Source of the DNA: Pyrinomonas methylaliphatogenes
GTDB lineage: Bacteria > Acidobacteriota > Blastocatellia > Pyrinomonadales > Pyrinomonadaceae
DNA length: 64,000 bases
Direction of reading: 5' to 3'
NCBI RefSeq assembly: GCF_000820845.2
Contig: NZ_CBXV010000006.1
Coordinates: 62,001-126,000 of the forward strand
Shown here in pieces: positions 32,591-51,658 of this stretch. Position 1 is the stretch's first letter; every line of letters begins with the position of its first letter. The notes beneath the pieces are model-generated. The model did not search any database and was not told the DNA's origin. It saw only the letters and a program-made list of their open reading frames with translations. The position numbers and the translations under genes are program-made.

Positions 32591-32675
<85 letters not shown>

Positions 32676-49801: not shown

Positions 49802-51259
49802 TCAATCGTTCAACTGGATCGAACGAAGCACCGTATTGAAGGCGCTTTGGAAACCGCTGTAATCGCTCTGCGGCGCCACCGTTATCACGTAGAAGAGATC
49901 ACCGCCGCGCAACAACGTCGTGTAAACCTCGACGATCTCCGTTCTTCCCGTGATGTAAGATTCGCCTGCCAATCGCGCACGCAGCGCTTCGCGTCCGCTC
50001 AGGTAGGCGCGCTGGTATCCGCCCTGCTGACGCAAGTAGGAATTGCCTTGAATCAGAGTGTTGATGAAATTATCGGTCGCACGACGCAACTCGGCGGCTT
50101 GCGCGCGCGCGATGCCGATCTGCACGCCATGGGTGAAGACGAACTGCCCCTGGACCTCACCGTAAGCCCCATCGGGGGCGAAGATGGTCGAGCTGCCGCC
50201 GGCCAACTCGCGCCAATTATCCGGAACGCTCACCCGAAACAGGTTGCCGGTATAAGTACGGTAACTGCGCGAAGGCATCTCGACGCGCCCTCGTGGACCG
50301 CCGCCTTGCGGATAGCGCCTGCCGCCGCTCTGCACCTCTTGCATCGAAGGCGCGCGTCCCATTGAACGCAAACGCTCTTTGATGCGTTCGAATTCGGCGG
50401 TGTCGCGGATCGGATTCGAAACGCGCAACATCTGCGCTTCGCGCTCGATCCTCTCGTAACGATTGCCCGGATTCGGGTGATCGCTCAACCATTCCGGTCC
50501 ACCGCTCCCGCCTTCGCGCTCGAGCGTGCGGAACATGTTCGCCAAATCGCGCGGATCGTATCCAGCCCGCGCCATGATCTGCGCTCCCAGAACGTCAGCT
50601 TGCGTCTCGTACTCGCGACTGTATTTGAGGAAATAGATGCCGAGGCCAGTTTGCGTCCCCTGAGCGATGACCTGGCCCAGTCCGCCGCCGATGATCGCGC
50701 CGAGGATCGCGCCGCCGATGGCGGGCAACTGAAACTTCTGCGCTTTGGTCGCCTGCGCCGTCCCATGCCGCAACGCGATATGCGAAATCTCATGGGCCAT
50801 CACGCCCGCCAATTCGCCCTCATTGTGCGCCACCTCGATCACCCCGCGATTGACGTAGAGCGGGCCTCCCGGCAAAGCGAAGGCGTTGATGTCGCGGACG
50901 TTGACGACCTTGAACGTGTAATGGAATTCAGGATGTTGGAATTGAGCCGGGATCGCCGCAACCAATCGCTGTCCGACCCGTTCGATATAATCCTGCACAA
51001 CCTCATCATTGAGGAGCGGAAGTTGACGTTCGACCTCGCGCGCCGCCTCTTGTCCAAGGCGCACATCGTCGCGCGGGCTGTAACTGTTTTTCGGCGCGCT
51101 GATGCGCGTTTGCGCGAGCGCAAGTTGCGGCATCACCGCCATTGCGACGATCAGCCAAATCGCCAACCAAACTGTAAGATCACCGCTTCTCACTCGCCCG
51201 CGATGGCATCTTGCCGCTCGCCAACTGGATTGCGAAATTGAACGATCTCTGCTTCTCAC
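49802..51259 (-). CDS. Secreted M48-family metallopeptidase
   Basis: 485 residues. The zinc motif HEISH is in GVMAHEISHIALRHG (about 155-165), and the third ligand is in the later SREYETQAD. A signal peptide lies after a long basic n-region (hydrophobic WLAIWLIVAMAVMPQLALA). The C-terminal 200 residues, beyond the catalytic domain, include a PSRSYRTYTGNLFRVSVPDNW segment of unknown fold. This is a BepA/YfgC-like peptidase that may do outer-membrane quality control. The start is a GTG at 51259 with GGAGGG in front; a U-tailed hairpin just upstream suggests attenuation. The stop is 22 bases from the winged-helix gene stop. Confidence 0.9.
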   Translation of the reverse strand: MRSRDRSISQSSWRAARCHRGRVRSGDLTVWLAIWLIVAMAVMPQLALAQTRISAPKNSYSPRDDVRLGQEAAREVERQLPLLNDEVVQDYIERVGQRLVAAIPAQFQHPEFHYTFKVVNVRDINAFALPGGPLYVNRGVIEVAHNEGELAGVMAHEISHIALRHGTAQATKAQKFQLPAIGGAILGAIIGGGLGQVIAQGTQTGLGIYFLKYSREYETQADVLGAQIMARAGYDPRDLANMFRTLEREGGSGGPEWLSDHPNPGNRYERIEREAQMLRVSNPIRDTAEFERIKERLRSMGRAPSMQEVQSGGRRYPQGGGPRGRVEMPSRSYRTYTGNLFRVSVPDNWRELAGGSSTIFAPDGAYGEVQGQFVFTHGVQIGIARAQAAELRRATDNFINTLIQGNSYLRQQGGYQRAYLSGREALRARLAGESYITGRTEIVEVYTTLLRGGDLFYVITVAPQSDYSGFQSAFNTVLRSIQLND

Positions 51260-51278
51260 CTCATCCCTCCTTATGCGG

Positions 51279-51364
51279 AAAAAGCGGCGCGCCCTTATTC
51301 TCTGGGGGCGTGCCGCTTCAAGAAGCTTCCCCCACGTTTAAGAGCGACCTTTGCGCTTGGGGGA
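51279..51364 (-). promoter_or_regulatory. Possible attenuator/riboswitch-like leader of the M48 gene
   Basis: On the minus strand a 13-bp GC-rich hairpin (51306-51318 with 51282-51294, one G-T wobble) ends in TTTTT, directly before the GGAGGG ribosome binding site (about 51266-51271). Just upstream a second helix pairs 51358-51364 with 51328-51334 (TCCCCCA/TGGGGGA), with a small inner hairpin 354-357/343-346. The 3' strand of that helix could also pair with CCCCCA at 51303-51308 in the terminator, although only three of those bases are in its stem. No room remains for a promoter between the terminator and the start codon. Confidence 0.55.
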
Positions 51365-51516
51365 GAGCGCTAGATTTCGCGCACCGATGACGCGCACGGT
51401 GCCGCGTTAGCATATTTCACAGATGAATCCTACTGCAAGCCGGTTGTCTTGTCACGGAAGATTGGAGCGAAACAGAGCGATTCCCAACTTGCAACGTTGT
51501 AAGGGATTATGCACAA

Positions 51517-51658
51517 GCCAAAACGAGAACAAAGGAGCGATGCTCACGCGGTTCGAGCTTGTGGAGACGGAGACGGCGCTGATATGCTCACCCCGGACTA
51601 ATCACGGATTTCGAAGGACAAGCGCCGCCAAAATGAGAACAAAGGAGCGATGCTCACG
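51517..51658. repeat. Paired direct repeat (32 bp x2, 78 bp gap), locus F
   Basis: Copies at 51517-51548 and 51627-51658, containing GAGAACAAAGGAGCGATGCT, match at 31 of 32 positions. The gap is 78 bp, twice that of all other pairs. It lies in the 428-base gap between the membrane protein gene and the M48 gene. Confidence 0.9.

Follow-up and report, generated by a model that had tools for sequence, protein, structure and literature searches.

A candidate transcription attenuator before an M48 peptidase gene in Pyrinomonas methylaliphatogenes and part of its family

How can a gene be expressed when a terminator-like hairpin stands between its promoter-like box and its ribosome-binding site? 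The question is raised by an M48 peptidase gene of the soil acidobacterium Pyrinomonas methylaliphatogenes K22T, which has a genome of 3,788,560 bp in 16 scaffolds and a growth optimum of 65 °C (PMC4644332). The window, i.e. the whole stretch of 64,000 nucleotides that was analysed, carries the gene and, as read from the sequence, its ribosome-binding site at the following positions:

49802..51259, minus strand: M48 peptidase gene, 485 aa, GTG start at 51259
51270-51265, minus strand: Shine-Dalgarno sequence GGAGGG

The encoded protein matches PF01435 of Pfam (E 2.8e-31). By eye, its N terminus is signal-sequence-like and its first residues are similar to those of the same-genus homologue, L002. 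The genes located upstream on the same strand encode a protein without any Pfam match, a JAB-domain protein and an aspartyl-tRNA-synthetase-like protein. The intergenic DNA upstream of the leader also contains a 32-nt direct repeat (51517-51548 and 51627-51658, 97% identical, spacing 110), whose 21-base core has no further copy in the genome with at most 2 mismatches.

A first-pass annotation had described a 13-bp hairpin followed by five Ts directly before this gene. The placement and the T-run are correct; the stem, on the minus strand, has an A·C mismatch at one of its 13 positions, the other 12 being paired. Its parts are as follows:

51318-51306, minus strand: 5' arm of the terminator (strand 3, T5'), AAGCGGCaCGCCC / AAGCGGCACGCCC
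51303..51318, minus strand: whole strand 3 (T5'), including CCCCCA at 51308-51303, able to pair with TGGGGG of strand 2
51294-51282, minus strand: 3' arm of the terminator (strand 4, T3'), GGGCGcGCCGCTT / GGGCGCGCCGCTT
51283-51279, minus strand: T-run of the intrinsic terminator, five T, read from the sequence

The first two Ts are paired with the AA of the stem and three lie past it. Only 8 bases (first given as about 10) separate the T-run from GGAGGG, which leaves no space for a second promoter after the terminator, as had been argued. This hairpin is missed by a simple terminator scan because its loop of 11 exceeds the allowed 8. The thermodynamic folding that had been proposed as a check does predict the helices, but the energy of the leader stretch taken alone is unexceptional (z -1.61; 11 of 200 shuffles fold equally well). 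The leader stands above chance because it is conserved: the whole arrangement is present, in 13 genera, before 25 of the 65 family M48 genes whose upstream regions were read.

This arrangement comprises four strands that occur in the same order in relatives: strand 1 (CTCTCCCCC), strand 2 (TGGGGGA), then strands 3 and 4, i.e. the two terminator arms. The upstream helix and the alternative partner CCCCCA (51303-51308), with its three-base overlap with the stem, are as the annotation described them. In the window, the two upstream strands are:

51358..51368, minus strand: strand 1 (P1a), the putative anti-antiterminator strand, GCTCTCCCCCA
51325..51334, minus strand: strand 2 (P1b), partner of strand 1 or of strand 3, TGGGGGAAGC
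51358-51364/51328-51334, minus strand: upstream helix (1:2), read from the sequence

We consider it probable, at about 0.66, that this leader works as a four-strand attenuator of transcription, including interference with strand 1 by some factor. An ECF-like alternative sigma factor would start the transcript near 51415, a position suggested by a conserved box. Pairing of strand 1 (CTCTCCCCC) with strand 2 (TGGGGGA) would then let strands 3 and 4 form the intrinsic terminator, and RNA polymerase would halt ahead of the M48 ribosome-binding site. If some factor held strand 1 off strand 2, the latter would be free to pair with strand 3 at its apical end (in the window, TGGGGG:CCCCCA), the terminator would be weakened and the M48 gene would be read. 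We infer four parts of this model: where the transcript starts, that it terminates, in which direction the switch works and that a signal acts via strand 1.

M48 homologues are present in all 60 relatives and, at E <=1e-100, in 110 of 119 family genomes. The 65 family upstream regions come from 64 genomes (L001-L023, L025-L027, L029-L044, L068-L087 and L118-L120); among the 55 family genomes outside the sample, 39 are from a single large genus (g9), of which two members were sampled, both devoid of the leader. Besides the 25 complete leaders, 4 of the 65 regions carry a partial one (L003, L010, L037 and L079) and 36 lack the hairpins. No such leader was found in seven M48 upstream regions from other families of the class (L024, L028 and L124-L128), two of which are repeated as L129 and L130. 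In a tree of 44 M48 proteins, where 14 of 41 inner branches are open and the row of L005 is wrong since this region was read in the wrong orientation, the complete leader is found on several deep branches, and its distribution needs 9 changes versus 13.2 for shuffled data. This would fit an ancestral leader followed by repeated loss, without proving it. The short leaders of genus g10 (L038-L041) lack hairpins; their C-rich stretch can pair well with the Shine-Dalgarno sequence in three of four (duplex energies of -9.4 in L039, -14.8 in L040 and -10.8 in L041, and -6.4 in L038), possibly as a reduced, translational form.

As for the T-rich tract, across 28 leaders the 12 bases past the stem contain a mean of 7.4 T, versus 2.1-2.8 in the next three stretches of this size, and at least 6 T are found there in 25 leaders, the exceptions being L002, L003 and L079. 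The T-run is therefore not universal: L002, the sole other species of the genus in the sample, keeps the hairpin without it.

Both helices whose covariation in relatives the annotation had proposed to examine are conserved. This was assessed on alignment A2, made of hand-made blocks from 20 of the 25 complete leaders (without L005, L032 and L118-L120). Two-sided changes are seen at 3 of the 7 paired positions in helix 1:2 and at 9 of the 14 in helix 3:4. Covariation reaches a score of 0.307, matched in none of 500 shuffled alignments (0.190), and 85.7% of cells pair versus 46-55% with slid partners, a control that overstates the case because A2 was fitted by hand to the helices. The number of further pair types shows no excess over shuffles in A2 (128 of 500). 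Compensatory changes are visible in the raw sequences, for example in L012, where CTTCCC faces GGGAAG. When strands are swapped between leaders, helix 1:2 gives a weak signal (p 0.03-0.07), partly because strand 1 hardly varies; its UCCC is almost invariant in A2. In the window, the 1:2 duplex reaches -17.9 kcal/mol. With a possible RNA thermometer in mind, the complete leader of the window was folded at 65 °C, where the predicted probability of this helix is still 0.97.

Two other pairings of strand 1 were considered and rejected. Pairing with the terminator base (CGCUCU:AGAGCG) is persuasive by eye in several leaders, and cognate partners do no better in it than swapped ones. A pseudoknot, with strand 1 in the loop of a hairpin, reached p 0.03 with cognate strands and was dropped because shifted controls reached p 0.03-0.08.

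Further evidence concerns the competing helix 2:3. The duplex energy of the cognate strand 2 and apical strand 3 was compared with that of strands exchanged between leaders. With wide strands and one leader per genus, p was 0.001 over 15 genera. The strand windows were narrowed after this first, wider test, in which p was 0.07 for helix 1:2; the narrower strands gave z -5.08 for helix 2:3 (one leader per genus, 15 genera), with reversed controls at -1.07 and -0.57. With 16 genera, z was -5.12 (reversed-strand controls -0.73 and -0.15), and a further test gave -5.0, with none of 10,000 permutations as low. When one leader per genus was drawn at random 30 times, z averaged -4.6, with a control at -0.37. 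The signal persists without the three strongest genera (z -3.84) and also when the incomplete L003, L010 and L079 are removed in addition (z -2.75, p 0.004, 10 genera). Pooled values that include same-genus relatives are z -6.64 for 24 leaders and -6.03 for 28, with reversed controls that are not null (-2.29 and -2.02, and -1.89, respectively), which shows what relatedness and composition can do. Cognate pairs include UUCAGGGGG:CCCCCUGAA in L025, UUCGGAGG:CCUCCGAA in L072, AUGGGGGA:UCUCCCAU in L009, CAGAGGG:CCCUCUG in L081 and UGGGGG:CCCCCA in the window. The three leaders found later by a covariance model are individually neutral (better swaps in 9 of 26, 18 of 25 and 13 of 25), and L005 has a weak duplex of -8.3 kcal/mol. 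Helix 2:3 spans only the apical part of the terminator; its inner extension over the terminator base is not significant (p 0.11).

The alternative pairing proposed by the annotation is thus supported across 16 genera, with cognate strands pairing better than swapped ones (z about -5). Its claim of attenuation also gains from these data: a terminator lies between a conserved promoter-like box and the gene, with a T-rich tract in 25 of 28 leaders, and the helices are mutually exclusive, with changes that are compensatory across genera in 1:2, 3:4 and 2:3, that of 1:2 being weak in the swap test. The model is built on the strands, on their conservation in part of the family and on these compensatory changes.

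A rival explanation would be a fixed terminator that insulates or dampens the gene, stopping read-through from upstream and keeping M48 expression constantly low without any signal. Hairpins based on AGCGGC...GCCGCT and followed by T-rich tracts do occur elsewhere in family genomes, and the six that were inspected look like ordinary terminators, so that the conserved stem base could be explained without any switch; the absence of the leader from many family members would also suit such a device. This explanation, which leaves strands 1 and 2 and the compensatory change in 2:3 unexplained, seems improbable to us.

Among the matches listed for 119 genomes, the covariance model built from A2 found three more M48 leaders (L118, L119 and L120), and it also matches L005, which carries the leader. 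Of the listed matches away from M48 genes, six were inspected (L096, L097, L099, L100, L101 and L105); they have strong terminator-like hairpins and a poor or shortened helix 1:2, part of which is retained in L099. In the P. methylaliphatogenes genome, there is one model match among the matches listed (E <=0.1, strict filters) and one match to the pattern of strands 1 and 2. A plasmid collection gave no match.

About 140 bases above the T-run lies the conserved box (AAC, about 20 bases, CATC), whose form resembles that of promoters of ECF sigma factors. In the window, its elements, picked by eye and conserved in spacing, are:

51442..51448, minus strand: -35-like element GACAACC of the ECF-sigma-like promoter
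51422..51428, minus strand: -10-like element ATTCATC

The ECF-like factor is only a candidate because a sigma-70-like match (GTGACA-17-TAGGAT, 51455-51427, 9 of 12 positions) overlaps this box in the window. A box made of CAAC or CAAAC, then TCATC, was listed by eye in 48 of the 65 family regions: 24 with complete or partial leaders, the three found later by the model and 21 without hairpins. The other 17 comprise 15 hairpin-less regions, L037 and L005, the last of which was misoriented when listed. The distance from AAC/ACC to CATC is 19-21 in 43 of these 48 regions, a count that is favourable by construction because the boxes were picked by eye. As 21 of the 36 hairpin-less regions retain the box, it is most simply the promoter of the M48 gene, and transcripts would then have to pass the terminator.

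The pattern CAACC-N14..18-TTCATC occurs at 21 places in the genome, versus 6 for the reversed pattern. Of 20 sites with loci, the M48 site and L058 are overlapped by open frames of merely 122-124 codons; the remaining 18 lie in open frames of at least 177 codons that are probably coding. L058 (1501-1526) is thus a second, apparently intergenic box of the P. methylaliphatogenes genome (CAACC-N15-TTCATC), about 75-90 bases before a gene that probably encodes an exported repeat protein and is a possible second target of the same sigma factor.

The unit running from this box to the terminator could also be read as the gene of a stress-induced sRNA whose C-rich, anti-Shine-Dalgarno-like strand 1 acts in trans, the M48 gene being expressed by read-through. 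Such a gene would have its own promoter-like box and its own terminator, the near invariance of UCCC in strand 1 would make sense, and termination would yield an RNA of about 135 nt under either reading. The C-rich motif, the hairpins and the alternative sigma factor recall the alphaproteobacterial CcsR/cuckoo RNAs; unlike these, the M48 element is a gene leader, and its single CcsR1 match is on the opposite strand and far below the gathering score (20.1 bits versus 65.3, E 1.6). Moreover, a plain sRNA would have no evident use for compensatory change in 2:3, most predicted terminated RNAs keep strand 1 paired in helix 1:2 (mean probability 0.69; above 0.3 in 22 of 28), and the box occurs before the M48 gene even where hairpins are lacking. 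We therefore regard this explanation as unlikely.

Under the attenuator reading, predicted folding suggests when the choice would be made. Growing transcripts of the window were folded in 8-nt steps from the assumed start at 51415: the 2:3 hairpin is predicted to be best at 112, 120 and 128 nt, and 1:2 together with the terminator from 136 nt onwards. Forcing the 2:3 form on the complete leader of the window costs 4.9 kcal/mol (-59.4 versus -64.3). Over 28 leaders at 37 °C, strand 2 has, before strand 4 exists, a mean predicted probability of 0.43 of pairing with strand 1 and of 0.34 with strand 3; once strand 4 exists, these values are 0.69 and 0.00. Likewise, the probability of 2:3 exceeds 0.3 in 13 of 28 leaders before strand 4 and in none of 28 after it. 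As 2:3 is predicted to be lost once strand 4 is made and to be the worse form in the complete leader, the outcome would be decided by folding kinetics or by a factor that captures strand 1.

What could act on strand 1? No leader peptide crossing it is conserved among 27 leaders: five (L012, L014, L031, L032 and L119) have no ATG, GTG or TTG frame across it, and the other 22 disagree in frame, start and stop, with Shine-Dalgarno-like matches of at most 4 bases. The window contains a 31-codon ATG frame on the minus strand (about 51413 to 51318) that has no Shine-Dalgarno sequence, crosses strand 1, ends at the terminator and is not common to relatives. No conserved aptamer-like core was seen by eye in 20 leaders, in which the 32-67 nt from strand 1 to strand 2 are variable in sequence. 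Rfam 15 identifies only a tRNA in the window (32591-32672), and none of 19 matches obtained at a permissive E-value in 11 related loci reaches its gathering score. The term riboswitch is therefore unsupported: in the sense of a ligand aptamer, the 'riboswitch-like' control suggested by the annotation finds no backing, the enclosed part being variable, with no Rfam match and no sensor found.

Strand 1 might rather pair with the Shine-Dalgarno sequence of the M48 gene, strand 2 being a competing decoy, and so control translation. The corresponding duplex in the window (-14.2 kcal/mol) is close to that of 1:2, in L003 and L010, where strand 2 is missing, strand 1 is paired with this site in the minimum-energy fold, and the C-rich stretch of L039, L040 and L041 can do so. 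Nevertheless, any purine-rich Shine-Dalgarno sequence pairs with a C-rich strand, these figures come from cognate strands alone, strand 2 is closer and made earlier, and the terminator is left unexplained. As the main mode of control this appears very unlikely, although predicted pairing leaves room for an added effect on translation, which may exist besides attenuation.

The leader is thus probably a new attenuator of a known kind, without a counterpart in Rfam and restricted to some members of one acidobacterial family. As in trp and his attenuators, its strands are ordered 1:2, 2:3 and 3:4, the last pair being an intrinsic terminator close before the gene; unlike them, it has no conserved leader peptide, precedes an envelope-type peptidase gene and carries an ECF-like box. 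It shares the succession of anti-antiterminator, antiterminator and terminator with riboswitches of the terminator-platform type and differs from them by the lack of a conserved aptamer-like core and of any Rfam match at gathering score.

In Escherichia coli, bepA is under sigma-E control. We know of no RNA attenuator for bepA, nor of any described for an envelope M48 peptidase. BepA is a periplasmic M48 peptidase of this species (PMC7950410 and PMC8423444). It resembles the present case as a periplasmic M48 peptidase with an envelope-stress type of promoter. No description of this leader or of an attenuator of an envelope M48 peptidase was found in the literature, in a coverage that leaves out most subscription journals. 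We tentatively suggest, as a possibility that is still doubtful, that the M48 gene is under serial control by an envelope-stress sigma factor and an RNA switch, the latter being thrown by a protein or sRNA that recognises the C-rich strand 1 (CUCUCUCC).

The interest of the leader lies in the gene that it would control and in the missing signal. In this cultured acidobacterium, the leader is a concrete candidate RNA switch that lends itself to testing, and a branch of envelope stress control at the RNA level may lie behind the missing signal.
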